From: Actinospica acidithermotolerans
GTDB lineage: Bacteria > Actinomycetota > Actinomycetes > Streptomycetales > Catenulisporaceae
DNA length: 64,000 nt
Direction: 5' to 3'
Assembly (NCBI RefSeq): GCF_018139625.1
Contig: NZ_JAGSOH010000028.1
Location: 1 to 64,000 of the forward strand
The position numbers and the translations under genes were made by a program. The notes under the pieces are model-generated. The model did no database searches. It was not told the DNA's origin and saw only the letters and a list, made by a program, of their open reading frames with translations. Positions 30,072 through 51,460 of this stretch are shown here, one piece after another. Each line of letters opens with the position of its first letter. Positions within the stretch are counted from its first letter, which is position 1.

Positions 30072-30304
30072 AGGTGACGCCCCGTCAGGTCCCGGTACGC
30101 CGCGCGCGTGCCGGGACGCCGCTTTCCGGCCGTCTTCCGGGGGCGCACACCAGCGCGAAGGCCTGGCAATGCGCGCGCCCCCTCTATAAGGTCGCCCCGG
30201 GCGGCGGGTGCCTCCCCGTCCGCCCGGCGCAAAGGATTATCACCCGTTCGGGAAAGCGCCGTACAGCGGGCCGCTCCGGTGGTTACGCTGGCAGCGGCTC
30301 TTCG

Positions 30305-30324
30305 GCACGTGCGTTTGCACGTGC
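30305..30324. promoter_or_regulatory. Two GCACGTGC palindromes
   Basis: Identical 8-bp palindromes GCACGTGC at 30305-30312 and 30317-30324 are separated by GTTT, 24 bp before the HAD start codon. Together they make a symmetrical site suited to a dimeric or tetrameric repressor. Confidence 0.4.
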
Positions 30325-30347
30325 ACGGTCGGAAGGAGACCACCACC

Positions 30348-31058
30348 GTGAATCCCACACACGACCCCGGTAGGCGGCAGGCGCCCCCGCGCTCGCGCAC
30401 CGTCGAGGCCGTGGTCTTCGACGTCGGGGAGACCCTCGTCGACGAGAGCATCGAGTACCACGGCTGGGCCGACTGGCTCGGCGTGCCCCGGCACACCTTC
30501 TCCGCCGTCTTCGGCGGCGTGGTCGGCGCCGGACGCGACCACCTGGAAGCCTTCGAGTACTTCAAGCCGGGCTTCGACCTGGAGCGCGAGCGGCTGGCCC
30601 GCGCCGAGGCCGGACGTCCCGAGGGCTACAGCGAGCGCGACTTCTACCCGGACGCGCGCCCCACCCTCGCCGCCCTTCACGAGGCCGGGTACCTGGTGCT
30701 GATCGCCGCGAACCAGACCAGGCAGTCGCACCGCAGGCTCGAGTCGATGAACCTGCCGGTCGACCTGGTCACCACCTCGGACACCTGGGGCATCAGCAAG
30801 CCGGACCCGCGCTTCTTCGCGAAGGTCGTCGAGGTCTGCCGCGGCCTGCGCCCGGGCATCGAGGCCGGGCAGATCTGCTACGTCGGCGACCGCCTGGACA
30901 ACGACATGCGCCCCGCGTGGGAGGCCGGACTGCGCACCGCTCACATCCGCCGCGGCCCCTGGGGCCACCTGCACGGCGAGGACCCGGATCTGGTCGCCAA
31001 GGCCGACTTCCGGCTCGCAAGCCTCAGCGAGCTTCCGGAACTGCTGTCCGAGCAGTAG
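30348..31058 (+). CDS. HAD-family hydrolase
   Basis: The 236-residue protein has HAD motif I as DVGETLVDE (about 25-33), motif III SKPDPRFF and motif IV as YVGDRLDNDM, the last typical of HAD hydrolases related to 2-haloacid dehalogenase and phosphoglycolate phosphatase. The Glu in place of the second Asp of DxD (DVGE) is seen in a subset of HADs and makes a classical phosphatase role less certain. The GTG at 30348 has GGAAGGAG 9 bp upstream. The following operon starts 86 bp later on the same strand. Confidence 0.85.
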   Translation: MNPTHDPGRRQAPPRSRTVEAVVFDVGETLVDESIEYHGWADWLGVPRHTFSAVFGGVVGAGRDHLEAFEYFKPGFDLERERLARAEAGRPEGYSERDFYPDARPTLAALHEAGYLVLIAANQTRQSHRRLESMNLPVDLVTTSDTWGISKPDPRFFAKVVEVCRGLRPGIEAGQICYVGDRLDNDMRPAWEAGLRTAHIRRGPWGHLHGEDPDLVAKADFRLASLSELPELLSEQ

Positions 31059-31144: not shown

Positions 31145-32422
31145 GTGGCGATGGCGACGGCGCGGCGGATACGGACGGCAGGTGCGCCCCCCGGGCGGGG
31201 CACCCGCCTCGACACTCCCACCCGGCTGTGGCTGCTGCTGACGACGGCCGTGGCGGCGGTCCTCACGGTCGGACTGGTCGCCGGCTTCAGCCTCGCCGGG
31301 CGGGAGTCCTCCGCCTCGCACACCGCGCATGACACCGAGGTGCTCTACACCGAGGTGCAGAACCTCTCCTACAGCCTCGCCGACGCGAACGCGACGGCGG
31401 CCACCGGCCTGCTGATCGGCCCGCAGACGCCCGGCCAGTTCACGTCGCGCTACGACGCCGACATCGCCCAGGCCGAGGACCTGCTCGCCGCCGCCTCGCA
31501 GCGGGTGACCGGCGACGCGTACGCCTCCGCGCAGCTCAAGGCCGTCGCCGAGCAGCTCCCGCAGTACACCGGCATGATCGGCCAGGCGCTCGCCGAGAAC
31601 CGGCTCGGCTACCCCGTCGCGGGCGCGTACCTGCGGCAGGCCTCCGAGCTGCTGACCGGCTCGATGCTCACCGAGACGTGGCACGTCGTGAAGGAGCAGC
31701 AGGACGCGACCAGCGGCGGGCTCGGCTCCTCGACCGCGTTCCCCTGGTGGGAGTTCGGCGTCGGGGTGCTCGCGCTCCTCGTGCTGTGGCGGGTCTCGCG
31801 TCGCGTCGCGGGCGTCTCCCGGCGGCGGTTCAACCCGGGCCTGCTCGGCGCCGTGCTGGCGGTGGCGGTGCTGCTCGTCTGGAGCGTGTACGCCGCCGGC
31901 GCCGTCAGCCTCGAGGGCGGCAGCGCGCGCACCGACTACATCGGCCTGGCCGCGGCGCAGACGCAGATCTCAGAGCTCTCCCTCACGGAGGCGTACGTCG
32001 CGCTGCAGCAGATCGACCGCGGCGAGGACCAGGGGGCGGACGCCGCCGCCGCGAACACGGCTCTGAAGGCCGCGAACCCCGACCCCGGCTCGACCGGGCC
32101 GTCCGACTACCGCGCGGTTTCCGGATGCGTGACCCAGGCGATCGGGCTCGCCGCCGGCGGGAGGTACCAGGCCGCGATCGACGCGACCGTCGGCAGCGGC
32201 AAGACGGCCGGCGAGGGCGGCTGCGAGCCGGCCGTCGGCACCCTGCGCGCGGATCTGCAGAAGACCGCGGCGGCCGAGCAGGCGAAGTTCGGCCGGGACA
32301 TGAGCAGCGTCGGCTCCGAGTACGCGGGCGCCGCGGCGTTCGCGCTGGCGCTGGTGATCGGGCTGCTGGGCGCGGCGTCCGCGGCCTACGGCCTCAACCG
32401 GCGGCTGGCGGAGTTCCGGTGA
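31145..32422 (+). CDS. glnX: GlnX-like four-helix membrane signalling protein
   Basis: The 425-residue protein has four membrane helices: LWLLLTTAVAAVLTVGLVAG (from residue 28), VGVLALLVLWRVS, LLGAVLAVAVLLVWSVYAAG and FALALVIGLLGAASAAYG near the end. Two extracytoplasmic segments lie between helices 1-2 and 3-4. Size and layout match mycobacterial GlnX, which passes the signal from the Asp/Glu-binding protein GlnH to the kinase PknG. Here a GlnH-like lipoprotein gene follows with a GTGA overlap or a 26-bp gap, and pknG is three genes on. Sequence is poorly conserved in this family, so the call rests on topology and context. Confidence 0.75.
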   Translation: MAMATARRIRTAGAPPGRGTRLDTPTRLWLLLTTAVAAVLTVGLVAGFSLAGRESSASHTAHDTEVLYTEVQNLSYSLADANATAATGLLIGPQTPGQFTSRYDADIAQAEDLLAAASQRVTGDAYASAQLKAVAEQLPQYTGMIGQALAENRLGYPVAGAYLRQASELLTGSMLTETWHVVKEQQDATSGGLGSSTAFPWWEFGVGVLALLVLWRVSRRVAGVSRRRFNPGLLGAVLAVAVLLVWSVYAAGAVSLEGGSARTDYIGLAAAQTQISELSLTEAYVALQQIDRGEDQGADAAAANTALKAANPDPGSTGPSDYRAVSGCVTQAIGLAAGGRYQAAIDATVGSGKTAGEGGCEPAVGTLRADLQKTAAAEQAKFGRDMSSVGSEYAGAAAFALALVIGLLGAASAAYGLNRRLAEFR

Positions 32423-32448
32423 GCGCGACGAAGGGGGCGGGAGCTGCC

Positions 32449-33420
32449 ATGAGGGGGAGAAGGATGCGGCGGATATCGAAGGTCCTCGGGGTCGCGATCG
32501 CGGCCGCGGCCGCGGCGAGCGCGTGCTCCAGCCCGGGAGCGGGGTTCGCCTCCGCGCAGCCGAGCGCTCCCGCGGCCGTCTTCGCCGCCACGGCCCCGGC
32601 CGCGACGCAGTCCGCGAGCAGCGGGAACTGCGACGTGTACGCGTCGTCCGCGGCGCCCTCCGCGAGCGACGCGGCGGGGCCCGACGTCGCCTTGATCAAG
32701 AGCCGCGGGCACGTGACCGTGGGCGTCGCGGCGGACCAGTACCTGACCGGCTACCTGGGGGCGGACGGCAGCGAGCAGGGCTTCGACATCGACCTCGCGC
32801 ACGCGATCTCGCAATCGCTGTTCGGCGATCCGGACAAGGTCGTCTTCGATGTGATCAGCACCGACGAGCGCATTCCCGACCTCCAGGCGCACAAGGTCGA
32901 CCTGGTGATCGACACGATGACGATCACCTGCGACCGGCTCGCGAAGGTCGGTTTCTCCGCCGTCTACTACGAGGCGAGCCAGAAACTGCTGGTGGAGAAG
33001 TCCTCCGGCTACACGGGCCTGAACGACCTCGGCGGCCGGAAGGTGTGCGCGCAGACCGGCTCCACCTCGATCTCGCTCATCCAGCACGCCGCCGCCAAGC
33101 CGGTCGCGGTCGAGGTCACCGACATCAGCGACTGCCTGGTGCTGCTGGAGGAGAACAAGGTCTCCGGGATCTCCACCGACGACACCATCCTCGCCGGGCT
33201 CGCGCAGCAGGACCCCAACCTCGAGGTGCTGCCGGCCCAGCTGGAGACGGAGCCGTACGGCATCGCCGTCGCGCACGGCGCCACCGACCTCGAGGGGTAC
33301 GTGAACGGCGTGCTCGCGCGGTACGAGTCGGACGGCGGCTGGGCCGCGTCCTACGCCCGCTGGTTCAAGGGCAGCCTGGGCCCCGCGAGCCCGCCGGTTG
33401 CGCAATACTCGAACCAGTAG
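32449..33420 (+). CDS. glnH: GlnH-like solute-binding lipoprotein
   Basis: This 323-residue protein begins with a basic lipoprotein signal ending ASAC, with lipid-attachment Cys C26, and a low-complexity linker. A type 3 solute-binding domain follows (HVTVGVAADQYLTGYL, GFDIDLAHAIS, KVDLVIDTMTIT, GRKVCAQTGSTS). Domains of this class bind polar amino acids. No ABC permease or ATPase gene is nearby, which argues for sensing instead of transport, as for mycobacterial GlnH acting with GlnX and PknG. I used the ATG at 32449 (GGGAG upstream); a GTG at 32419 overlapping the glnX stop is a possible coupled start. Confidence 0.85.
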   Translation: MRGRRMRRISKVLGVAIAAAAAASACSSPGAGFASAQPSAPAAVFAATAPAATQSASSGNCDVYASSAAPSASDAAGPDVALIKSRGHVTVGVAADQYLTGYLGADGSEQGFDIDLAHAISQSLFGDPDKVVFDVISTDERIPDLQAHKVDLVIDTMTITCDRLAKVGFSAVYYEASQKLLVEKSSGYTGLNDLGGRKVCAQTGSTSISLIQHAAAKPVAVEVTDISDCLVLLEENKVSGISTDDTILAGLAQQDPNLEVLPAQLETEPYGIAVAHGATDLEGYVNGVLARYESDGGWAASYARWFKGSLGPASPPVAQYSNQ

Positions 33421-33453
33421 CGTCGATCCGCACCAGCACGAGCCCGAGGACGC

Positions 33454-34701
33454 ATGCCGCCGTACGGAGAAATGAGCCCGCCCGCCCCGCTCACCCGGGA
33501 CAACGTGGACGCGGAACTCGCCCGGCTCGACGCCGACGCCGGGCGGGTCTCCGACGCCCTCGTCGAGCTGACCGAGTACAACTCCTACAAGCTGCTGGAG
33601 AGCGCGCCGCTGTCCGGCACGACCGCGCAGCGCTGGCAGCGGGTCAGCGCGAAGATCGCGGCGCTCTGGGACGACTACACCGCCTACCAGGACGTGCTCA
33701 ACCGGGCGCGGGAGATCCGCGGCCGCCGGGTCAAGCCGCGCCCCGAGGACCTGGCCGCGATCACGAAGCTGCTGCGCGGCCCGTCGATCACGCTCTCCAC
33801 GAAGTCCGTCGCGCTCTCCGAGCGCACCCTGCTGGGGCCATCGGCGATCTCGGAGACCGCGACGCTGGCCCAGACGCTGCACCGGATGGACACCGAGTAC
33901 CAGCTCGCCGCCGACTTCGTCGCGCAGACCGAGGAGGCCTGGAACCGGCTGTTCGCCGCGGCCGACCCGGTGCAGGAGCGGCTCAAGCGGCTCGGCGCGA
34001 CGGCCAGGGACATCGGCGACCGCTCGGTGGGCACGGCCGTCGCCGGGCTGATCGACGGCTACGCGGCGCTGCGCCGGGAGATCTTCGCCGACCCGCTCGG
34101 GCTGACCGCCCCGGGCTCCGCCTTCCCGGGCCGGCTCGCCGAGATCGACCGGCAGATCGGCGTCGTGGCCGAGGCCGCCGCGCACCAGGCCGACCTGCGC
34201 GCCGACTACGAGCGCGGCACCGAGCACCTGCGCCAGCTGGTGGAGCGCATCGACCAGGTCGAGGCCGGGCAGCGCAGCGTCGCGCGGACCGTGCGCGACA
34301 AAATCCTGATAGAGAAACTCCCGGCGTTCACCACCCAGGCGCCCGCGCTGCGCGCCCGCCTCGGCGCGCTGGACGCCCTGCGCGACCAGGGGCAATGGGC
34401 CAGGCTCGCCTCCGAGGCGGCGATCCTCGGCGACGCGCTCGACGCGGCGCTGGCCGAGGCCGCCAGGGTCGAGAAGCTCATGTCCGGACTCCTGGAACGG
34501 CGCGAGGAGCTGCGCGGCAGGCTGCAGGCCTACCGGGTCCGCGCGGCCCGGATGGGAGCAGCCGAAAGCCAGCCCCTTGAGGCCTACTACCAGGCCGCCC
34601 GCGAGCTGCTGTGGACCAGGCCCTGCGACCTCGCGGCCGCGACCCGCGCGCTCAGCGTGTACCAGAAGGCCGTGCTGGCGCTGGATCAGGGCCGATCCTG
34701 A
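33454..34701 (+). CDS. Conserved protein of the pknG locus, unknown function
   Basis: I do not recognise a named domain in this 415-residue protein. It is soluble, without signal peptide or membrane helix, and mostly long amphipathic helices with heptad-like patterns (ELARLDADAGRVSDALVEL near the start; AARVEKLMSGLLERREEL near the end), suggesting an extended coiled-coil scaffold. It sits between the glnH-like gene and pknG, with short spacing on both sides, so it is probably co-expressed and may bridge the sensor and kinase. Start at 33454, with an alternative ATG at 33472. Confidence 0.7.
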   Translation: MPPYGEMSPPAPLTRDNVDAELARLDADAGRVSDALVELTEYNSYKLLESAPLSGTTAQRWQRVSAKIAALWDDYTAYQDVLNRAREIRGRRVKPRPEDLAAITKLLRGPSITLSTKSVALSERTLLGPSAISETATLAQTLHRMDTEYQLAADFVAQTEEAWNRLFAAADPVQERLKRLGATARDIGDRSVGTAVAGLIDGYAALRREIFADPLGLTAPGSAFPGRLAEIDRQIGVVAEAAAHQADLRADYERGTEHLRQLVERIDQVEAGQRSVARTVRDKILIEKLPAFTTQAPALRARLGALDALRDQGQWARLASEAAILGDALDAALAEAARVEKLMSGLLERREELRGRLQAYRVRAARMGAAESQPLEAYYQAARELLWTRPCDLAAATRALSVYQKAVLALDQGRS

Positions 34702-34771
34702 TCCCGGGCCTGGAGCAGCGCCGCGGGCCGGCGCCATTGGGAAGACACAGCCTAGACGGGGGAGTGATGCG

Positions 34772-37189
34772 ATGATGGCTGACATGCGGTGTACCCGGCC
34801 CGGTTGCGGCGGAACGATCATGGACGGCTACTGCGACACCTGCGGCCTCGCGGCCAAGACCGCGGCCCCGGCAGCCACCTTCGGCGCGCCGTCCGCCCCC
34901 TCCGCGGGGGCCGCTTCCGGCCCCGCCGCGGACCGCTGCGCCCGGCCGGGCTGCGGCGGAACGGTCATGGACGGCTACTGCGACACCTGCGGACTGGCCG
35001 CGAAGAACACTGCCGGGCACGTGCCCGCGCAGGGCGCCGGCCGGGAGACCTCGGCCCGCACCTCCTCGTCCCTGTCCGCCCGCTCCTCCTCGCGCACCTC
35101 CACCGGCCGCACCCGCGGCTCCGCCCTCTCCGCCCGCGCCACCAGCCGCGGAGCCGGCTCCACCCGCGGCTCGCGCAGCACCGGCCGCGGCGGCCTGGGC
35201 CTGGGCATCGTGGAGATCCCCAGCATCGAGTACCGCGACCCGAGCGAGGCCGTGCTCGCGAACCCCGAGGTGCCCGAGCACAAGCGCTACTGCTCGCACT
35301 GCGGCAAGCAGGTCGGCCGCGGCAAGAACGGCCACCCGGGGCGCACCAAGGGCTTCTGCGCCCAGTGCCGCAACGGCTACGACTTCGAGCCGAAGCTCGT
35401 CGCCGGCGACATCGTGGCCGGGCAGTACGAGGTGCTCGGCTGCCTCGCGCACGGCGGCCTCGGCTGGATCTACCTGGCCAGGGACAACAACGTCTCCGGC
35501 CGCTGGGTCGCGCTCAAGGGCCTGCTCGACACCGGGGACGAGGCCGCGCTGGCCGCCGCCGTGGCCGAGCGGCAGTTCCTCGCCGAGGTCGAGCACCCGA
35601 ACATCGTCAAGATCTACAACTTCGTGCAGCACGACACCGGCGACTACATCGTCATGGAGTACGTCGGCGGCAAGTCGCTCAAGCAGATCGCCCTCGACTA
35701 CAAGGACCTCAACGCCGGCCAGTCCCTGCCGCTGGCCCAGGTGCTCGCCTTCGCCATCGAGATCCTGCCCGCCTTCGGCTACCTGCACTCGATCGGCCTG
35801 CTCTACAACGACTTCAAGCCGGACAACATCATCCAGTCCGAGGAGCAGCTCAAGCTGATCGACCTCGGCGCCGTGATGGCCTTCGACGACGAGGAGTCGG
35901 ACATCTACAGCACCGAGGGCTACAAGGCCCCGGAGCTGGAGAACGACGGCCCGAGCGTCGAATCGGACCTCTACACCGTCGGCCGGATGCTGGCCGTGCT
36001 GGCCTTCGACTTCAAGGGCTACCAGCGCGACTTCGCCTACAAGCTGCCCAACCGCGAGTCGGTCCCGGTGCTCACCCGCTTCGAGTCCTTCGACCGGGCA
36101 CTGCGCCGGGCCACCCACGCGCGGCGGGAGCGGCGCTTCTCCTCGGCCGCCGAGATGGCCGTGCAGCTCACCGGCGTGCTGCGCGAGGTCGTCGCCCTGG
36201 AGCGCGGCGAGCAGCAGCCCGCGGTCTCCTCGCTGTTCACCACCGAGCGGTACTCGGCCGGCACCGAGGGCGTGACCGCGGCCGACGCCCCGACCAGCGC
36301 CCAGTTGGCCGCCGCGCTGCCGCTGCCGCTGCCGGACCCGGCCGACCCCAACTTCGGGTATCTCAACACCCTGGGCGGCCGCGCGGACCAGATCATCCGG
36401 GTGCTCGGCGAGCTGCGCAACCCGACACCCGAGGTGCATTACCGCGTCGTGCGCGCCGCGATCGAGATCGGCAGTTTCGACGAGGCGCGCCGCCGGCTCG
36501 ACAAGATCGCCGCGGTGGACGCCTTCGACTGGCGGGTCGGCTGGTACCGCGGCCTGGTCGCGCTGTGCCAGGGCGACGCGCTGGAGGCGCGCGCGAAGTT
36601 CGAGGAGGTCTACGCGGAGCTGCCCGGCGAGCTCGCGCCCAAGCTGGGCATCGCGGTGGCCGCCGAGCAGGCCGCGCAGCTGTCCGACGCGCTGCGCTAC
36701 TACCAGCTCGTGTGGAGCGTGGACCGCTCCTACGTGACCGCCGCGTTCGCGCTGGCCCGGCTGCGGATCGGCGCCAAGGACCACGCCGGCGCCGTCGAGG
36801 TGCTCGGCCAGATCCCGGAGATCGCCATCCAGCGCACCGCGGCCGAGATCGCGGCCGTGCGCGCCCGGCTGGACTCCCCGGGCTTCGCCGACTGGGCCGG
36901 CCCGGCCGAGCTGGCCAGGCTCGGCGAGCGCGTCGACGCGCTCGGCCTGGACGGCGAGGCGCACGAGTCGCTGGTCTGCGAGGTGCTCGGCGGCGCGCTC
37001 GCCTGGCGGCTGCACGACCCGGCCGCCCCCGCCGACCGCACCCTGTTCGGCGCCGCCCTCACCGAGGACGGCCTGCGCGGCGCGCTGGAGCGCTCGTACC
37101 GGGCCAGGGCGCGGATGGCGCAGAGCCGGGCGGCCCGGATCGCGATGGTCGACTGCGCGAACCAGGTGCGTCCGCGGACGTGGGTCTGA
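34772..37189 (+). CDS. pknG: Serine/threonine protein kinase PknG
   Basis: The 805-residue soluble kinase has the PknG architecture. Two N-terminal zinc ribbons occur (Cys 7/12/21/24 and 56/61/70/73, both ending DGYCDTCG), then a Ser/Thr/Arg-rich segment (91-138). A rubredoxin-like Cys cluster (174/177/196/199), the kinase domain (about 219-480) and C-terminal TPR-like repeats follow. Catalytic residues include K249 (VALK), D347 in YNDFKPDN instead of HRD, and D364 in DLG instead of DFG, both usual for PknG. In mycobacteria PknG phosphorylates the FHA protein GarA to adjust glutamate metabolism. The two extra N-terminal ribbons are not in mycobacterial PknG. Start at ATG 34772, GGGGGAG upstream. 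Confidence 0.95.
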   Translation: MMADMRCTRPGCGGTIMDGYCDTCGLAAKTAAPAATFGAPSAPSAGAASGPAADRCARPGCGGTVMDGYCDTCGLAAKNTAGHVPAQGAGRETSARTSSSLSARSSSRTSTGRTRGSALSARATSRGAGSTRGSRSTGRGGLGLGIVEIPSIEYRDPSEAVLANPEVPEHKRYCSHCGKQVGRGKNGHPGRTKGFCAQCRNGYDFEPKLVAGDIVAGQYEVLGCLAHGGLGWIYLARDNNVSGRWVALKGLLDTGDEAALAAAVAERQFLAEVEHPNIVKIYNFVQHDTGDYIVMEYVGGKSLKQIALDYKDLNAGQSLPLAQVLAFAIEILPAFGYLHSIGLLYNDFKPDNIIQSEEQLKLIDLGAVMAFDDEESDIYSTEGYKAPELENDGPSVESDLYTVGRMLAVLAFDFKGYQRDFAYKLPNRESVPVLTRFESFDRALRRATHARRERRFSSAAEMAVQLTGVLREVVALERGEQQPAVSSLFTTERYSAGTEGVTAADAPTSAQLAAALPLPLPDPADPNFGYLNTLGGRADQIIRVLGELRNPTPEVHYRVVRAAIEIGSFDEARRRLDKIAAVDAFDWRVGWYRGLVALCQGDALEARAKFEEVYAELPGELAPKLGIAVAAEQAAQLSDALRYYQLVWSVDRSYVTAAFALARLRIGAKDHAGAVEVLGQIPEIAIQRTAAEIAAVRARLDSPGFADWAGPAELARLGERVDALGLDGEAHESLVCEVLGGALAWRLHDPAAPADRTLFGAALTEDGLRGALERSYRARARMAQSRAARIAMVDCANQVRPRTWV

Positions 37190-37264
37190 CGGTGGACGGC
37201 GTGAACCGCTCCGCGCGCTTGCGGACCGTGTGACGGAGCACAGACCAGGGATGAGGACGGGGAC

Positions 37265-38413
37265 GTGACAGAGCCCGAACAGCCGGACGCCGCGGCAGGC
37301 GGACTGGACGAGACGCTCGGCGAGACGCTCGAGACGCCGATCGCCCGGCCGGCGGCCGCCTGGCCGAGCTGCCCGGCCTGCGGGGCCGAGGTCGCGCCCG
37401 AGGACGGCTACTGCGAGGAGTGCGGCGCCGACCTGCTGGTGCGCCGCTCCGAGCCCGCGCTGCCGTCCGGCGGCCCGTGCCGCTCGGCGGACTGCGCGGG
37501 AGAGTCGTTCACCGACGGGTACTGCGACGTGTGCGGATCCCCGGAGCCGGACCCGCGCGACCACTACGAGCGCGACCTCGGCCCGGTCGCCGGGGTCACC
37601 GACCGCGGCCTGCGGCACTCGCGCAACGAGGACGACATGTCCCTCGCCGTGCTCGGCGCCTCGGGCGGCGCGCCGATCGCCGTCGCGGTGGTCTGCGACG
37701 GGGTGTCCACCTCGTACAAGCCGGAGACCGCCTCGGCCGCCGCCGCGCTCACCGCCCGCGAGCACCTGGTGCTGGCGCTGCGCCGCGGCGAGGACCCGCA
37801 CTCGGCCACCCTGGGCGCCTTCGAGCAGGCGAACAAGGCCGTGGTCGCGCTGCCCGCCGACCCCGTCGACGAGGGCAACGGCCGGGCCAGCACCATGGTC
37901 ACCGCGATCGTCGCCGAGGACGGCGTCACCGTCGGCTGGGTCGGCGACGCGCGCGTCTACTGGCTGGATTCGAACCCCGAGGACTCCCTCGCGCTGACCC
38001 TCGACGACTCCTGGGCCGGGCGGATGATCGCGGACGGCACGCTCACCGAGGAGGAGGCGTTCAAGTCCCCGCTCGCGCACACCATCCTGCGCTGGCTCGG
38101 CCCCGGCGCCCCCGAGGAGCCGGCCAACCTGCGGGTCTTCCTGCCGGACGGCCCCGGCCTCGTGCTCGCCTGCAGCGACGGGCTGTGGAACTACGTCCCC
38201 GACGCCGCCGACCTGGCCAGGCTCGCCGCGGGCGGCTTCGGCGGCCTGCAGGCCGCCGCCAACGCGATGGCGTCCGTCGCGATCGAGGGCGGCGGCCACG
38301 ACAACATCACCGCGGTGCTCGTGCCCTGGCCGCCGCGCCGGCCGGAGCAGGGCGGGGAGCCGACGAGCGAGATCCAGGCAGTCAACGAGCCAGTCGAGGG
38401 GAACGAGCAGTGA
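37265..38413 (+). CDS. PP2C-family protein phosphatase with zinc ribbons
   Basis: This 382-residue protein begins with two zinc ribbons (CPACG...YCEECG at 36-53, and C72/C77 with YCDVCG) resembling those of PknG. A PP2C catalytic domain follows, with metal-binding motifs TDRGLRHSRNEDDM (112-125), VVCDGVST with D145, WVGDARVYW and GGHDNIT. It would remove phosphate from Ser/Thr, probably opposing PknG next door. GTG start at 37265, 75 bp after pknG; the stop overlaps the vWA start as GTGA. No membrane helix or signal peptide is present. Confidence 0.93.
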   Translation: MTEPEQPDAAAGGLDETLGETLETPIARPAAAWPSCPACGAEVAPEDGYCEECGADLLVRRSEPALPSGGPCRSADCAGESFTDGYCDVCGSPEPDPRDHYERDLGPVAGVTDRGLRHSRNEDDMSLAVLGASGGAPIAVAVVCDGVSTSYKPETASAAAALTAREHLVLALRRGEDPHSATLGAFEQANKAVVALPADPVDEGNGRASTMVTAIVAEDGVTVGWVGDARVYWLDSNPEDSLALTLDDSWAGRMIADGTLTEEEAFKSPLAHTILRWLGPGAPEEPANLRVFLPDGPGLVLACSDGLWNYVPDAADLARLAAGGFGGLQAAANAMASVAIEGGGHDNITAVLVPWPPRRPEQGGEPTSEIQAVNEPVEGNEQ

Positions 38414-39723
38414 GCAACCAGCCCCAGTTCACGGTCAACGTCTACCAGAACGAGTATCTGGCCGAGGGCGCCTCCGAGGTCAACGCCATCGTCTCGGTGC
38501 AGTCCGCGGCGGCCTTCGGCGGGGCGACGAACAGCCGCGCCGCCCAGGTGATCATGGTCGACTGCTCGGGCTCGATGGACTACCCACCGACCAAGATGGC
38601 CGCCGCCCGGCAGGCCACCGAGGCGGCGATCGACGCGATCCGCGACGGCGTGCCCTTCGCGGTCGTCGCCGGAACGCACGTGGCCCGGATGGTCTTCCCC
38701 GGCACCGAATACCTGGTGCCCGCCGACGCCTCCTCGCGCGCCGCGGCCAAGGCGGCCGTGGCCCGGCTGACGGCCGGCGGCGGCACCGCGATGGGCCAGT
38801 GGCTGGCGATGGCCGACCGGCTGTTCACCGGGCACGAGCAGGCGATCCGGCACGCGATCCTGCTGACCGACGGCAAGGACGAGCACGAGGACCCCGCCGA
38901 CCTGGCCGCGGCCCTGTCCCGCTGCGAGGGCCGGTTCACCTGCGACTGCCGCGGCATCGGCACCGACTGGGTGGTGGCCGAGCTGCGCAAGGTCTCGACC
39001 GCGCTGCTCGGCACCGTGGACATCGTGGCCGACCCGGGCCGGCTGTCCGCGGACTTCCAGCAGATCATCGAGCACGCGATGGGCAAGGCCGTCGGCGACG
39101 TGCGGCTGCGGGTGTGGGCCCCGCAGGGCGCGCAGGTGAAGTTCGTCAAGCAGGTCGCGCCGCAGATCGTGGACCTCACCGGCCGCCGCGCGCCCGGGCC
39201 GAACCCGCTGACCGGCGACTACCCGACCGGCGCGTGGGGCGCCGAGTCGCGCGACTACCAGGTCTGCGTCCAGGTGCGGCCCGGCTCGGTCGGCGACGAG
39301 ATGCTCGCCGCGCGGATAGGCCTGGTCGCGGTGGACGGCGCCGGCCAGGCCGCCGTGCTCGGCCAGGGCCTGGTGAAGGCGATCTGGTCGGACGACATCG
39401 CGCAGACCGGCCGGATCGACCGCACCGTGGCCGACTACACCGGCCAGACCGAGCTGGCCGACGCGATCCGGGAGGGCCTCGAGGCGCGCAAGAACGGCGA
39501 CCTGGACACGGCCACGGCCCGGCTCGGCCGGGCGGTGAAGCTGGCCGCCGAGTCCGGCAACGACGAGACCGCGCTGCTGCTGTCGAAGGTCGTGGACGTG
39601 GACGACCCGGCCACCGGCACCGTGCGGCTCAAGCAGCGCGTCTCCGACGCCGACGAGATGACCCTGGACACCCGCTCGACCCGCACCGCGCGGGTCGGCA
39701 AGAACCGCAACAACCACAGCTGA
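38410..39723 (+). CDS. von Willebrand factor A domain protein
   Basis: The 437-residue cytoplasmic protein has a vWA domain (about 44-200) with an intact MIDAS metal site: DCSGSM (51-56), T126 in GGGTAMG and D154 in LLTDGKD. The C-terminal half has beta-rich and helical segments (TGQTELADAIREGLEARKNG) without a domain I can name. vWA proteins act as Mg2+-dependent protein-interaction modules. The GTG start overlaps the PP2C stop. A kinase, a PP2C phosphatase and a vWA protein together recall the TerY-P triad described for Ter-linked stress systems, but no Ter genes are present here. Confidence 0.93.
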   Translation: MSNQPQFTVNVYQNEYLAEGASEVNAIVSVQSAAAFGGATNSRAAQVIMVDCSGSMDYPPTKMAAARQATEAAIDAIRDGVPFAVVAGTHVARMVFPGTEYLVPADASSRAAAKAAVARLTAGGGTAMGQWLAMADRLFTGHEQAIRHAILLTDGKDEHEDPADLAAALSRCEGRFTCDCRGIGTDWVVAELRKVSTALLGTVDIVADPGRLSADFQQIIEHAMGKAVGDVRLRVWAPQGAQVKFVKQVAPQIVDLTGRRAPGPNPLTGDYPTGAWGAESRDYQVCVQVRPGSVGDEMLAARIGLVAVDGAGQAAVLGQGLVKAIWSDDIAQTGRIDRTVADYTGQTELADAIREGLEARKNGDLDTATARLGRAVKLAAESGNDETALLLSKVVDVDDPATGTVRLKQRVSDADEMTLDTRSTRTARVGKNRNNHS

Positions 39724-39748
39724 GCGCCAGCTCGAGGGAGTGTTTGCC

Positions 39749-40804
39749 ATGGCGAGATGTCCGGCGGGGCACGAGTCAGAGGCCAGCGACTACTGCGACA
39801 CCTGCGGGCTGGTGATCGGGGCGCAGCCGGCCGGGACCGGCGCGTCCGCGGCCGCCCCGACGCTCGTCGCCCCGGCGGCGCCGGCGACCACGGCCGGCGG
39901 TCAGGCGGGTGGCGGTCAGGCGGGCGGCGGCGCGGGCGGCGCGTGCCCGGTCTGCCAGGCCGAGCGCAACGGCCGCTTCTGCGAGGAGTGCGGATACGAC
40001 TTCGAACTCGCCGAGGCGATGCCCCAGGTCACCATGACCCCGGGCGTCCCCCCGGCCGAACCGGAGGCGGAGCCCGAGCCGGCGAACGGGTCCGCATCCG
40101 GCTCCGGCGGCCGGGGCCTCGACCTGGAGGCCGAGCTGGCGCGCGCCGAAGCCGAAGCGGAGGCAGAGCGGCAGTCCGCCGCGTCCGCTGCGTCCGGTGC
40201 GTCGGCCGCGCCTGCTGAGACCTCCGAGCCCCAGGCCGAGGCCGAGCCGTCCGCCCACCCGGAGTCATCGGCCCCCGAGTCTTCGACGCCTGAGTCCTCG
40301 ACCCCTGAATCCTCGGCCCCTGACTCCGCCGTCCCGGAGCCCCTGTCGCCCGAGGCGGAGGCCGCGCTCAACCTCGCCTCCGTGCTCACGCCGGCCTCCG
40401 CGTTCGGCTCCGAGCTGACCCTCGTCGTGAACGCGGACCGCGACTACTACAAGGCGCAGATCGAGCGCGGCGACATCATCGAGTCCGAATTCCCGTTCCC
40501 GAAGTACCCGCACGAGCGCCGCTTCACCTTCACCGACAGCCCGATCCGCATCGGCCGTGCCTCGGCCAGCCGCGGCCTGGCCCCCGAGATCGACCTCACC
40601 GGCCCGCCCCTCGACCCCGCCGTCTCGCATCTGCACGCGCAGCTGCTCCGGCACGACGAGGGCTGGGTCGTCGTCGACCTCGACTCGGCCAACGGCACCC
40701 GCCTCAACGACGCCGAGGAGCCCCTCGCGGCGGAGACCGAGATCCCGGTCAACCGCGGCGACCGCATCCACCTCGGCGTCTGGACGACGATCACCCTCCA
40801 GTAG
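39749..40804 (+). CDS. FHA-domain protein with zinc ribbons
   Basis: The 351-residue protein has two Cys-pair ribbons (C16/C19 in DYCDTCG; C66/C69 and C78/C81 in CPVCQ...FCEECG), an acidic Pro/Glu/Ser linker with five near-repeats of PESS(A/T) at 171-193, and a C-terminal FHA domain. That domain has IRIGR (266-270), SHLHA in place of SxxH (293-297) and NGTRLN (315-320). FHA domains bind phosphothreonine. It is the last gene of the pknG run and could be a substrate or reader of PknG, like GarA/OdhI, although its N-terminus is different. I chose the ATG at 39749 with GAGGGA upstream. Confidence 0.92.
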   Translation: MARCPAGHESEASDYCDTCGLVIGAQPAGTGASAAAPTLVAPAAPATTAGGQAGGGQAGGGAGGACPVCQAERNGRFCEECGYDFELAEAMPQVTMTPGVPPAEPEAEPEPANGSASGSGGRGLDLEAELARAEAEAEAERQSAASAASGASAAPAETSEPQAEAEPSAHPESSAPESSTPESSTPESSAPDSAVPEPLSPEAEAALNLASVLTPASAFGSELTLVVNADRDYYKAQIERGDIIESEFPFPKYPHERRFTFTDSPIRIGRASASRGLAPEIDLTGPPLDPAVSHLHAQLLRHDEGWVVVDLDSANGTRLNDAEEPLAAETEIPVNRGDRIHLGVWTTITLQ

Positions 40805-47434: not shown

Positions 47435-47582
47435 CCGCGACGTTCCTGCTCGACGCATCCGCGAAACCGAGATCAGATGGGTCCCGCGGGGGCTGACGGT
47501 GCTTCACGACGATCGCGACTATGAGGCGGTCGCGCGGGTGCTGCCCGAGGCCGGACAGCACCGCATCACGTCCGTCGGCTGA
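47431..47582 (+). pseudogene. VapC toxin gene remnant with internal deletion
   Basis: From the GTG at 47431 the protein starts VTATFLLDASA, the N-terminal PIN strand with the first catalytic Asp, then runs into a stop. A different frame then carries GLTVLHDDRDYEAVARVLPE, the C-terminal PIN segment, up to 47582. The central part with the other acidic residues is gone, so the toxin cannot be active. Confidence 0.7.
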
Positions 47583-47619
47583 CGCTCGGCCGGTCAGCCG
47601 CCGTAGCCGGTCAGCCGCC

Positions 47620-49149
47620 TCAGTCGCGCAGCGAGCCCATCCACTGCTCGATGCCGGCGACGGTGCGCGGCAGCGCGGCCGAGAGGTTCTCGTTGCCGTC
47701 CGCGGTGACCAGGATGTCGTCCTCGATCCGCACGCCCACGCCGCGATACTCCTCCGGCACCGTCAGGTCGTCGAGCTGGAAGTACAGGCCCGGCTCGACG
47801 GTCAGGATCATGCCGGGCACGAGCTGCGCGTCGACGTAGTCCTCGGTGCGGGCGTCGGCGCAGTCGTGCACGTCGAGGCCGAGCATGTGGCCGGTGCCGT
47901 GCAGCGTGTAGCGGCGCTGCAGGCCCAGCTCGATGACGCGCTCCGCCGGGCCTTCGAGCAGGCCCCACTCGACGAGCCGCTCGGCCAGCACGCGCTGCGA
48001 AGCCTCGTGGAAGTCGCGGAAGCGGGCGCCCGGGCGGACGGCCGCGATGCCGGCCTCCTGCGCGTCGTACACGGCCTCGTAGATCTTCTTCTGCAGCTCG
48101 GAGAACCGGCCGTCGATCGGCAGCGTGCGGGTGACGTCGGCCGTGTACAGCGTGTCCGTCTCCACGCCGGCGTCCAGCAGCAGCAGCTCGCCCGGGCGGA
48201 CGGCGCCGTCGTTGCGCACCCAGTGCAGGGTGGTCGCGTGCGGGCCGGCCGCGCAGATCGAGCCGTAGCCGACATCGTTGCCCTCGACCCGGGCACGACG
48301 GTAGAACGTGCCCTCGATCCAGCGCTCCGAGGTCGCGATCGCCTGGCCCAGCTCGCGCACCACGTCGGTGAAGCCGGTGGCGGTCGCGGCGCACGCGCGG
48401 CGCATCTGCTCGATCTCCCACTCGTCCTTCACCAGGCGCATGCCGTGGAGGAAGACCTTCAGCTCCTCGTCGAGCTCGGCCGCGGCCCGCTCGTCCCGGC
48501 CGGAGGCCAGGTCCACCACGGCGTCGAGCTGCTCGTCGTGGCCGCGCAGGATGCGGGTGACGACGCCCTGGTCGGCGACGATCGCCTCGGCCAGCTGCTC
48601 GGCCGCCTGCCGCGAGTCGCGGGTGGCCAGGCCCAGGATCGCCGCGGCCTCCGTCAGGGAATTGCGACGGCCCACCCACAGCTCGCCGTAGCCGCTGAGC
48701 CAGAACTCGCCGTCCTCGCGGTTCGAGCGCGGCAGCAGGTAGATCGCCGCCTCGTGCCCGCCGTCTGCCTTCGGCTCCAGGATCAGCACGCTGTTCTCGG
48801 TCTGATCGCCGGTCAGGTAGACGTAGTCGCAGCTGGCGCGGAACGGGTAGTCGGTGTCGTTCGAGCGGACCTTCAGGTTGCCGGACGGGATGACCAGCCG
48901 GTCGCCCGGGAACGCCGCGGACAGCGCCTTGCGCCGCTTCGCCGCATACGGCGACTGAGCCGACGGCTCGAGCCCGTCCCGCTCGGTGTCGGCCCAGCCG
49001 GAGCGCATGCTCGCGCCCAGCTCCTCGCTGATCTCCCCGTACAGGCCGTTCTTGCGCCCGGAACGGACCGGCTGCTCGCGGTCCCCCGTCTCCGCCGCCG
49101 TCTCCGCTGCCGCCGCCGTCTCCGCCGTCTGCTCGACCCGCTCTGTCAC
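47620..49149 (-). CDS. pepP: Xaa-Pro aminopeptidase (M24B)
   Basis: The 509-residue protein has an AMP_N N-terminal domain (about 60-190; KALSAAFPGDRLVIPSG) and a C-terminal pita-bread metallopeptidase domain. Metal ligands are visible as LLLLDAGVETDTLYTADVT in part (two Asp), HGTGHMLGLDVHD (His), LTVEPGLYF (Glu) and VRIEDDILVT (Glu). It removes N-terminal residues before proline and needs Mn2+ or similar. I chose the GTG at 49149 (VTERVEQ), with GAGGAAGGG upstream; a further ATG would add 11 residues. The first 45 residues are Ala/Glu/Thr-rich, as in other actinomycete members. Confidence 0.94.
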   Translation of the reverse strand: MTERVEQTAETAAAAETAAETGDREQPVRSGRKNGLYGEISEELGASMRSGWADTERDGLEPSAQSPYAAKRRKALSAAFPGDRLVIPSGNLKVRSNDTDYPFRASCDYVYLTGDQTENSVLILEPKADGGHEAAIYLLPRSNREDGEFWLSGYGELWVGRRNSLTEAAAILGLATRDSRQAAEQLAEAIVADQGVVTRILRGHDEQLDAVVDLASGRDERAAAELDEELKVFLHGMRLVKDEWEIEQMRRACAATATGFTDVVRELGQAIATSERWIEGTFYRRARVEGNDVGYGSICAAGPHATTLHWVRNDGAVRPGELLLLDAGVETDTLYTADVTRTLPIDGRFSELQKKIYEAVYDAQEAGIAAVRPGARFRDFHEASQRVLAERLVEWGLLEGPAERVIELGLQRRYTLHGTGHMLGLDVHDCADARTEDYVDAQLVPGMILTVEPGLYFQLDDLTVPEEYRGVGVRIEDDILVTADGNENLSAALPRTVAGIEQWMGSLRD

Positions 49150-49231
49150 TACCCACGCCCTTCCTCGACCGTTACGGGGCACAGCGTAGCCGCTCCCGGA
49201 CGCGCCCGATAGACCGGCCGTCCGGTGGGCC

Positions 49232-49771
49232 TTACAGCGGGCCGAACAGCCAGTTCCCGACGTCCGCCGGGTCGTTCGACGCGTAGAAGGCCTGCGCGGC
49301 GGCGGCCACCTCCGGACGGCTGAGCACCCCGTCGTCGTCCGAGTCGAGCAGGTCGAAGGCCTCGACCGTGTCCTGCGCGCCGACGCCGTACGAATGCATC
49401 CACTTGGTGAACTCGCTCAGGTCGATCACGCCGTTGCCGTCGGCGTCCACCATCTCGAAGATGAGCTCCACCGGGTCGTGCGCGGGCGGCAGCGGCTGCT
49501 CGCGCATCAGCCGCTCGCAGCCGTCCATGAACTGGCTGAGCGAGATCCGGCCCTCGCCGTCCGAGTCCATCAGGCCCCGCAGCTGCTCCCACAGCTCGAG
49601 GTAGGCGTGGTGGACCCGTTCGTACTCCGGCGTGCCAGGAAGGTGCCCGAACGCCGCGCACAGCCGCAAGGTGACGAGGTCGTAGTCCCGTTGCGAGAGG
49701 TACCCGTTGCCGTCGGTGTCGAGCAGCGCGAACCGCAGCTGGAGCTTGCGGCGCTGGAGTGCGGTGAGCAT
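49232..49771 (-). CDS. Four-EF-hand calcium-binding protein
   Basis: This 179-residue cytoplasmic protein has four EF-hand loops: DTDGNGYLSQRD (18-29), DSDGEGRISLSQ (69-80), DADGNGVIDLSE (109-120) and DSDDDGVLSRPE (143-154). Positions 1, 3 and 5 are acidic or Gly/Asn in each; the canonical Glu at position 12 is replaced by Asp in loop 1 and Gln in loop 2, so loops 3 and 4 should bind Ca2+ best. It resembles calerythrin-like proteins of actinomycetes, thought to act as Ca2+ buffers or sensors. It follows the chitinase on the same strand, separated by a terminator. Confidence 0.95.
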   Translation of the reverse strand: MLTALQRRKLQLRFALLDTDGNGYLSQRDYDLVTLRLCAAFGHLPGTPEYERVHHAYLELWEQLRGLMDSDGEGRISLSQFMDGCERLMREQPLPPAHDPVELIFEMVDADGNGVIDLSEFTKWMHSYGVGAQDTVEAFDLLDSDDDGVLSRPEVAAAAQAFYASNDPADVGNWLFGPL

Positions 49772-49786
49772 GCGTCCATTGCAACG

Positions 49787-49820
49787 CGCCGGGCCCCGGG
49801 GCGCATCCCGAGGCCCGGCG
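49787..49820 (-). terminator. Hairpin terminator of the second chitinase
   Basis: CGCCGGGCC (49787-49795) pairs perfectly with 49812-49820, 9 bp with a 16-nt loop, 26 bp past the chitinase stop and just before the EF-hand gene. Confidence 0.65.
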
Positions 49821-49846
49821 GGCTTGAAAAGTGGTGAATGCGCTCC

Positions 49847-51460
49847 TCACCCGGTGTACGCGTCGAAGATCTTCGTGAAGTCGAGCGCGCTCTGCGAGAT
49901 CTCCGAGCAGGACGGCAGCCCGGAGGCCGAGCCGCCGCACGGCTGGTCCCGGTCCACCGACCAGAAGGCGAGCCGGCCGAGGTGCGCCGAATCCGCCCAG
50001 GTGACCAGCGTTTGCGCGTCGGCCTCCGAGAAGACCTCGGCCGAGTTGTCGTTCTGGCCGATCATCGGGGTGACGCCGATGTTCGCGTAGGTGTCGCCCG
50101 GCCAGTCCGCCTGCACCTGGGTCAGCGTGCTCTCGGCGGCCTCGACGGCCTCCTGGCCCATGTCGCCGGTGAACGACGAGCCGTAGTCCATCGCCATCAC
50201 GTTGACCAGGTCGATGCGGACGTTGTCCTGCTTGGCCAGCGCGAGGAAGGCCACGCCGTCCGCCGCCAGGCCGGTCGGCAGCACGGGCAGCGTCACCGAC
50301 ACGACGAGGTTCGGATTCGCCGCCTCGAGCGCGGCGATCGCCTGGAAGCGCAGGTTGTTGTCCGCCGTGTAGTCGAGCGGGGCGCCTTCGATGTCGAAGT
50401 CGATGTGCGTCACACCCAGGTGGGTGATCACGGACTGGTACGCCGCCTGGAGGGCGGACTCGGTCGTGCACGCCATCGCGAGCTCGGTGCCGCCCGCGCC
50501 GCCGAACGACACGATCGGCGTCGCGCCGTCCGCCTTCGCGGTGGCGATCTCCTGGTCCATCGCCGGGTCGTCGGTGACCGGGAGCGTGTCGCCCCAGATC
50601 GGCGAGCACCCGGAGGAGATCACGAAGGCCGCCGTGTACGAGGTGAGCCCCGCCTTGGCGGCGGAATTCAGCATCGGCTCCTGGTTGTTCGACATGTCCA
50701 CGTACGGTGCGACCTTGCCGACCGGGCCGCCGCCCGCCGTGCCGGTCCCGGTGGCCGTCGCGCTCGCGGACGCGGACGCGGACGCGGTGGCGGTGGACGT
50801 GGCGGTCGCCGTACCCGTCGACGACGTGCTCGGGCTGCCGGTCGAGGTGGTACCGGCAGTCAGCGAGAAGTCGTCGGCGTAGTACTCGGGCTGCGCGTAC
50901 CAGCCGTGGATGTAGACCGTCAGCGAGGTCTGCGACGCCCCCGTCGTGATCGACATCGAGAGCTGCTGCCAGCTCGTCGCCGACGGCGTCCACGTGTCGC
51001 TGCCGCCGGTGTCGCCGAGGTAGACGTAGGAACCCTCGACGTACGCCGAGAGCGTGTACGTCGTGTTCGCCTGGACGGTGACCGTCTGCGTGCACTGAGC
51101 GTCGTCGGACGAGGTGGGTGTTCCGGCGAGCGCGTACGAGCCGGAGTGCGCGGGACTGCCGACGACGCTCGCCGTCCCCGGATCGCACGTCCAGCCCGAC
51201 AGGCTCCCCGACTCGAAGCCGGCGTTGCTCAGCAGATTGGCGGCGGCCGCGGACGCGGCGCCGGTGGACAGGTACAGAGCCGCCGGAACGACGAGCGCCG
51301 CGGCGGCGGCCCCCACCCCCAGCCGCACAGACCGCCGGGGGCGCTGCCGGTCGGTGGTGCGGGTGCGGGTGTGAGCGTAAGTGTGGGTGTGGGTGTGGTC
51401 GGGGGCGGTGTGAATGCGCGGGTGCCTGTTCCGAGCGGACGTGCGTGTCCATCTCTGCAT
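49847..51460 (-). CDS. Secreted GH18 chitinase with N-terminal CBM
   Basis: The 537-residue protein has a long basic leader with a hydrophobic signal (RRSVRLGVGAAAAALVVPAA), possibly a Tat signal. A carbohydrate-binding module near NLLSNAGFESGSLSGW, an Ala/Ser/Thr linker and a compact GH18 domain starting at YVDMSNNQ follow. Its active site is THIDFDIEG with acid E358. The GH18 type, with the strand IVSFGGAGG, differs from that of the chitinase at 25314 and resembles exo-acting or class-D-like enzymes, while the CBMs are near-duplicates. Start at ATG 51460; the GAAGGAG upstream is rather far (about 13 bp). Two TGGTCTAGTCC boxes precede it. Confidence 0.92.
   Translation of the reverse strand: MQRWTRTSARNRHPRIHTAPDHTHTHTYAHTRTRTTDRQRPRRSVRLGVGAAAAALVVPAALYLSTGAASAAAANLLSNAGFESGSLSGWTCDPGTASVVGSPAHSGSYALAGTPTSSDDAQCTQTVTVQANTTYTLSAYVEGSYVYLGDTGGSDTWTPSATSWQQLSMSITTGASQTSLTVYIHGWYAQPEYYADDFSLTAGTTSTGSPSTSSTGTATATSTATASASASASATATGTGTAGGGPVGKVAPYVDMSNNQEPMLNSAAKAGLTSYTAAFVISSGCSPIWGDTLPVTDDPAMDQEIATAKADGATPIVSFGGAGGTELAMACTTESALQAAYQSVITHLGVTHIDFDIEGAPLDYTADNNLRFQAIAALEAANPNLVVSVTLPVLPTGLAADGVAFLALAKQDNVRIDLVNVMAMDYGSSFTGDMGQEAVEAAESTLTQVQADWPGDTYANIGVTPMIGQNDNSAEVFSEADAQTLVTWADSAHLGRLAFWSVDRDQPCGGSASGLPSCSEISQSALDFTKIFDAYTG

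Follow-up and report, generated by a model that had tools for sequence, protein, structure and literature searches.

Two groups of described systems lie closest to the locus reported here. The first is the GlnH-GlnX-PknG pathway, studied almost solely in Mycobacterium and Corynebacterium, where the operon has three genes. PknG of M. tuberculosis phosphorylates GarA at T21, and PknG of C. glutamicum phosphorylates OdhI at T14 (PMC2784874). The second group is built around von Willebrand factor A (vWA) proteins. In Sulfolobus, the zinc finger of ArnA holds unphosphorylated ArnB, ArnC phosphorylates C-terminal Thr residues, the forkhead-associated (FHA) domain of ArnA then binds, and PP2A reverses the modification (PMC12852372, PMC7472852). 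The ArnB phosphosites made by ArnC lie in the C-terminal bundle, and T371-T375 are phosphorylated late (PMC6509490, PMC12852372, PMC7472852). The TerY-P triad combines a kinase, a PP2C phosphatase and a vWA protein, and its kinase is defined by fusion to a C-terminal zinc ribbon (PMC11090510). The present analysis concerns a 64,000-nucleotide stretch of contig NZ_JAGSOH010000028.1 from Actinospica acidithermotolerans (the window), in which a run of seven + strand genes at 31145-40804 encodes, in order, GlnX, GlnH, an all-helical protein, PknG, a PP2C phosphatase, a vWA protein and an FHA protein.

The run is compact, with intergenic distances of 26, 33, 70, 75, -4 (a 4-bp overlap) and 16 bp in gene order. 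An earlier note, made from the letters alone, had listed seven same-strand genes in this order with short gaps or overlaps, and all of them are present on the + strand; the identities it gave for GlnX, GlnH, PknG, PP2C, vWA and FHA are backed by Pfam, NCBIfam and PDB profile matches. The locus is real and conserved, and it probably functions as one system. The reading favored here, with a probability of roughly one half, is a conserved signalling operon in which GlnX-controlled PknG phosphorylates the vWA protein, the FHA protein binds the vWA protein, and PP2C reverses the modification. The pieces are known singly; the combination and its likely ArnAB-type link are not described in the literature searched.

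Profiles made from the genes of the window served to examine PknG neighbourhoods, both in named loci and in further genomes of the class and phylum to which Actinospica belongs. Actinospica has the exact seven-gene order, as do the three Catenulispora loci with enough contig, 9 of the 9 main loci of Streptomycetaceae examined, and the families f8, f79, f86 and f105; a highly divergent helical gene is seen in f8, f79 and f105. The order is permuted in family f85 and in a Dormibacteraeota locus, where GlnX-GlnH is placed after FHA. Three genomes of the cyanobacterial phylum have helical protein-PknG-(PP2C)-vWA-FHA-GlnX, with PP2C undetected in L079, and one further genome of this phylum, which we infer to belong to the Melainabacteria side, has the set in a different order. 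The neighbourhood profile search gave no GlnH match in any of these cyanobacterial-phylum loci, the Melainabacteria-side genome included. GlnH is also absent from the set in the betaproteobacterium Solimicrobium silvestre (L010), which has the order vWA-FHA-GlnX-helical-PknG-PP2C with GlnX present. Mycobacteriaceae and Corynebacterium have GlnX-GlnH-PknG only, and their second copies are PknG alone. Set proteins of distant lineages are only ~30-50% identical. Since the set recurs in distant lineages at this level of identity, the grouping is far beyond chance, and the chance co-occurrence that the earlier note had allowed for is contradicted by the neighbourhood analysis it proposed. The set is the ordinary neighbourhood of PknG in Streptomyces and several other families and not an oddity of the Actinospica genome.

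Co-occurrence across whole genomes points the same way. PknG is present in 76 of the 247 genomes sampled from the class and missing from 171. A full-length vWA protein occurs in 47 of the 247, and all of them (47/47) have PknG; it is carried by 0/171 of the genomes without PknG. The helical protein is also found in 47 genomes, all PknG-bearing except G423. Because of shared ancestry, these counts are not independent observations. The exception, a Streptomyces-type genome, holds a decayed set (L062, G423:C25:38000-57900) with a PknG fragment and a broken vWA gene alongside retained helical, PP2C and FHA genes. Extra PP2C-vWA-FHA sets occur in family f86; those at L058 and L059 are accompanied by a helical protein and a kinase missing most of PknG, and no adjacent kinase was found for those at L060 and L061. 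Streptomyces also has second PknG-like genes (L042, L077), which are paired with a vWA protein carrying its own C-terminal zinc ribbon, and neither PP2C nor FHA was found nearby in these two neighbourhoods.

The vWA protein (38410-39723, +) links the set to ArnB. It consists of a beta-sandwich, a vWA domain and a helical bundle, and it matches VWA_3_C (2.9e-23) and, by family profile, the PDB entry 4fx5 (E 1.5e-189). The predicted model (pLDDT 94) matches ArnB (8s05_A) over its whole length with Z 30.1 and rmsd 3.6 across 367 residues, at a sequence identity of only ~15%. The ArnB paralogue VWA2 (5a8j) gives Z 27.7, and the remaining vWA matches are at Z <=24. The metal-ion-dependent adhesion site (MIDAS) residues are kept in 44/44 proteins. 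The best match is 4fx5 itself (Z 54.8, rmsd 1.2), which is Caci_2163 of Catenulispora acidiphila, an orthologue 56-57% identical to the protein described here. The deposition carries a family name only, and the literature examined does not discuss the neighbourhood of its gene; the set supplies a biological setting for this crystal structure. The three-domain fold shared by 4fx5 and VWA2 has been pointed out by Hoffmann et al. 2019 (PMC6509490).

The C-terminal end of the vWA protein has the consensus D-E-M-x-L-D/E-T-x-S-T-K/R-T-V-R. In the window this motif reads DEMTLDTRSTRTAR (39652-39693, +) and is, from column conservation, a candidate phospho-acceptor. Thr426 (codon 39685-39687) is kept in 43/44 proteins, Ser423 in 41/44 and Thr424 in 36/44. 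The cyanobacterial tail is ALETRSTKTTRIPK, and Thr426 is kept in the three cyanobacteria. Position +3 from Thr426 is mostly hydrophobic, and a hydrophobic residue at +3 is a common FHA preference. The structural alignment with ArnB ends at model residue 426, equivalent to ArnB 378, which is close to ArnB T371-T375. A different and common ArnB-like vWA family of cyanobacteria (L083-L087) has a conserved KKTRIVSKT-type tail, with tandem genes in L083 and L085; no FHA neighbour was found for this family.

The FHA protein (39740-40804, +) has the domain layout of ArnA, a zinc-binding N-terminal part followed by FHA. It consists of two N-terminal zinc ribbons, a low-complexity linker and a C-terminal FHA domain, which Pfam places at residues 269-346 (40544-40777, +; FHA 7.9e-10). 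The family profile matches the GarA, OdhI and ArnA structures, and the phospho-Thr site is kept (Arg in 42/43, Ser in 43/43 and Asn-Gly in 43/43). The PP2C phosphatase (37265-38413, +) matches PP2C_2 (4.4e-7) and NF033484 (1.3e-30), and its metal-binding Asp positions are kept in 48-49 of 49 proteins. It also has two N-terminal zinc ribbons, with a match to Zn_Ribbon_1. Ribbons of the CxxC...YCxxCG type are found at the N-terminus of most PknG, PP2C and FHA proteins of the set. By analogy with ArnA-ArnB, these ribbons may dock on the vWA protein. Over 60 rows comparing the vWA protein with the PknG ribbon, both are present in 31, neither in 19 and the two are discordant in 10; one of the ribbons counted (L077) is a rubredoxin. 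In the Streptomyces paralogue loci L042 and L077 the zinc ribbon is fused to the C-terminal end of the vWA protein.

PknG (34772-37189, +) is the only PknG_TPR protein found in the genome by family search. It matches PknG_TPR (2.9e-74), PknG_rubred and Pkinase as well as the M. tuberculosis PknG structure 2pzi (E 5e-150), and it is 83% identical to PknG of Actinospica durhamensis, the closest named relative. Tandem N-terminal zinc ribbons are followed by a Ser/Thr/Arg-rich linker, a rubredoxin domain, the kinase domain and the TPR domain. The catalytic residues are intact: Lys, Asp and Asn are kept in 67/67 proteins, and Lys, Asp, Asn and DxG overall in 65-67 of 67. The two ribbons (34790-34993, +), identified from the sequence and the ribbon tally, have the form CxxxxCxGxxxDGYCDxCG and have no counterpart in the mycobacterial PknG proteins examined. 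The all-helical protein (33454-34701, +) is conserved beside pknG, with 26 orthologues aligned. It has no Pfam match, and the AlphaFold2 model (pLDDT 90) has no Foldseek match at E <0.001. Its best VIA matches, designed coiled coils and EzrA, have Z 10-11, which is in the range of generic helical bundles.

Compared with ArnA-ArnB-ArnC-PP2A of Sulfolobus acidocaldarius, the set has a full-length ArnB-type tripartite vWA protein with intact MIDAS, an adjacent gene for a partner with N-terminal zinc ribbon and C-terminal phospho-Thr-binding-type FHA domain, a Ser/Thr kinase and a phosphatase, and a link to nutrient state. The set differs in being bacterial, in using PknG under a membrane sensor as the kinase, and in having a PP2C phosphatase, which belongs to a different family from PP2A; the archaellum output is not shared. 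Compared with GlnH-GlnX-PknG-GarA/OdhI, the locus has orthologous GlnX, GlnH and PknG genes in the same order, the TPR and rubredoxin domains and a GarA orthologue. It differs by four extra genes, located between and after these, by the extra PknG zinc ribbons, by replacement of Trp232 in GlnH and by T21 to Val in GarA. The type VI secretion pathway PpkA-PppA-Fha1, with its kinase, phosphatase and FHA protein, may be a functional parallel.

On the favored reading, GlnH would bind a small polar amino acid outside the membrane and signal to GlnX, as is known in mycobacteria and corynebacteria, and GlnX would switch PknG on through the TPR domain, as in the published model. PknG would then phosphorylate the conserved Thr residues at the C-terminal end of the ArnB-type vWA protein. 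Before phosphorylation the FHA protein may be bound loosely to the vWA protein through a zinc ribbon, and after phosphorylation the FHA domain may bind it tightly, as with Sulfolobus ArnA-ArnB. PP2C would strip the phosphate from the vWA protein. The ribbons common to PknG, PP2C and the FHA protein may recruit all three to the vWA protein as a hub. A scaffolding role beside PknG is probable for the helical protein. The gene set, its conservation, the folds and the intact active sites are observed, and from them each phosphorylation and binding step is inferred. In this operon a specific candidate substrate of PknG is encoded together with a reader and an enzyme that could reverse the modification. 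If this mechanism is true, a nutrient switch of the ArnA-ArnB type would exist in bacteria as well as in archaea, here controlled by a defined membrane sensor. Streptomyces and cyanobacteria with the set are easily manipulated. No link between PknG and an ArnAB-type pair was found in the literature searched, outside of which most subscription journals lie, and an earlier description is possible. The ArnAB literature examined does not mention PknG, and the PknG operon literature examined mentions neither a phosphatase nor a von Willebrand protein.

Several observations weigh against this mechanism. L060 and L061 of family f86 hold PP2C-vWA-FHA without adjacent PknG, and L022, L053 and L070 hold PknG-PP2C-FHA without the vWA gene. 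The link between the zinc ribbon and the vWA protein is not significant on the tree (4 same and 0 opposite informative pairs, p 0.125). The Thr region of the vWA tail is predicted with fair confidence (pLDDT ~89), so conservation of the tail Thr may reflect a structural role. Cyanobacterial vWA proteins outside the set likewise end in a basic Thr tail, KKTRIVSKT. Finally, Streptomyces keeps ETTS in GarA, which may thus remain the main target in that genus.

This last point belongs to the strongest alternative, in which PknG acts as in mycobacteria by phosphorylating GarA/OdhI and controlling 2-oxoglutarate dehydrogenase, and in which PP2C, vWA and FHA are accessories that tune or localise PknG and not its main output. 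A GarA orthologue is present in the genome (L055, G000:C16), where, judging from the sequence, it follows a glycine-cleavage-H-like gene. It carries a zinc ribbon at the N-terminus, as do most non-mycobacterial GarA proteins examined. Of the 247 genomes of the class, 217 encode GarA, and the Streptomyces protein (ETTST) retains the ETTS motif, so that classical-site GarA could be the target of PknG in Streptomyces. However, the protein in this genome has EVTST in place of ETTSV. Because the T21 position is Val, with only the neighbouring Thr left, classical-site GarA cannot be the target of PknG here. Other families vary, and several other module-bearing genomes have Gln or Val at the PknG site. 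A stricter rule, by which GarA would be without the PknG-site Thr in every module-bearing genome, was rejected: the residue is retained in Streptomyces, in f79 and in part of f85. The distribution of GarA also extends to most of the genomes without PknG, and the vWA, PP2C and FHA genes are absent as a block where the motif is fixed as ETTSVFR (19/19 Mycobacteriaceae). This alternative is rather unlikely.

A second alternative makes the FHA protein the main substrate of PknG, with its linker phosphorylated and self-binding as in GarA and with the vWA protein as a structural partner held through the zinc ribbons; in a variant, the FHA domain reads the Ser/Thr-rich linker of PknG. The Ser/Thr/Arg-rich linker N-terminal to the PknG rubredoxin domain is a feature of module-bearing lineages, and in characterized PknG the N-terminal segment serves to recruit FHA proteins (PMC8546545), both of which are consistent with such an arrangement. 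The FHA linkers are of low complexity with no evident common Thr motif across lineages, in contrast to the almost invariant Thr of the vWA tail, and this makes the FHA protein an unlikely main substrate.

A stress or defence triad like TerY-P, with kinase, PP2C and vWA as a metal-responsive switch tied to phage defence or stress and GlnX/GlnH as fortuitous neighbours, would account for the three adjacent genes and the many zinc ribbons, but it is very improbable, given that the kinase is PknG with a C-terminal TPR and without a C-terminal ribbon, that the vWA protein is ArnB-type, that a PADLOC search for defence families gives nothing more than generic kinase matches and one weak match, and that GlnX accompanies the set across phyla. 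The defence-system candidate was rejected on this PADLOC result, the weak match being the helical protein to DruC at E 0.003. The earlier note had compared the genes with TerY-P, and that comparison fits poorly: the ribbons here are N-terminal and on three proteins, sensor and FHA genes are present, and the vWA protein is tripartite, with ArnB-type proteins as its best matches among the structures compared. ArnA-ArnB is closer, as the resemblance of the vWA protein to ArnB spans the full length and zinc ribbons are present in the FHA protein as in ArnA.

The sensor part of the run is less certain in its ligand than in its identity. GlnX (31145-32422, +) matches NF058618 with E 7.3e-63 and 213 bits, below the curated cut-off of 250, and it has a conserved position in orthologous loci. 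GlnH (32449-33420, +) is a solute-binding lipoprotein with a lipobox-like Cys at about residue 26; it matches SBP_bac_3 (1.8e-26) and M. tuberculosis GlnH (6h1u/6h2t, E 1.5e-57). The Asp/Glu contacts of mycobacterial GlnH are R147, T162, S164, R169, D250 and W232 (PMC6069109). In the alignment to 6h1u these correspond to R141, T156, T158, R163, D244 and I226, so that five of the six are kept or conservatively changed. The Trp232 position, Ile here, varies widely, and K161 of the mycobacterial protein is D155. Because of the Trp232 replacement and the missing GlnH in the cyanobacterial and betaproteobacterial sets, an Asp/Glu ligand should not be assumed. The ligand is likely an amino acid, and Asp/Glu is not assured. 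The earlier note is supported in part: the path it proposed, from an extracellular sensor through PknG to a phospho-dependent complex, fits the data and gains strength from conservation across phyla, and its TerY-P analogy fits poorly.

The PknG tree suggests a history for the set. Mycobacteriaceae form one strongly supported clade that falls among the module-bearing lineages, next to Actinospica and Catenulispora; the rows from Dormibacteraeota and the betaproteobacterium are nested inside these lineages as well. The tree is a quick search rooted on paralogues, with the cyanobacterial rows left out and several open forks. The nesting favors a history in which Mycobacteriaceae lost the four genes and other phyla acquired the set by transfer; this direction is likely but not proven. 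PknG_TPR was found in 1 of the 299 genomes sampled from the phylum of Solimicrobium silvestre, that of S. silvestre alone, which suggests transfer into Solimicrobium. The three-gene operon of mycobacteria looks like a reduced version of the set. Should the larger set be the norm, models of the control of PknG by GlnX and of PknG targets rest on a reduced system. A more tentative proposal, which we hold to be possible but not probable, is that original bacterial PknG signalling was a six-part core of GlnX, helical protein, PknG, PP2C, ArnB-type vWA and ArnA-type FHA common to actinobacteria, cyanobacteria and others. GlnH would have been added later, and GarA/2-oxoglutarate dehydrogenase control in Mycobacteriales would be the remainder after loss of vWA and FHA. 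If so, PknG outside Mycobacteriales would act mainly through the vWA-FHA switch, its long-missing output.

The boundaries of the run were also considered. A HAD-hydrolase gene (30108-31058) lies on the same strand 86 bp upstream. It was rejected as an eighth member because the Catenulispora gene has a separate location, several kb away and on the opposite strand. The gene downstream of the run is convergent. A scan of the run found no sigma-70-like promoter inside it, and the sole terminator-like match is on the other strand; both scans are weak evidence at this G+C content. Elsewhere in the window, two long open frames (47521-49212, +, and 49149-51452, -) have no Pfam match, and either may be spurious. 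A single open frame at 58930-60513 (-) fuses a nucleoside-phosphorylase-like domain to an IspH/LytB domain.

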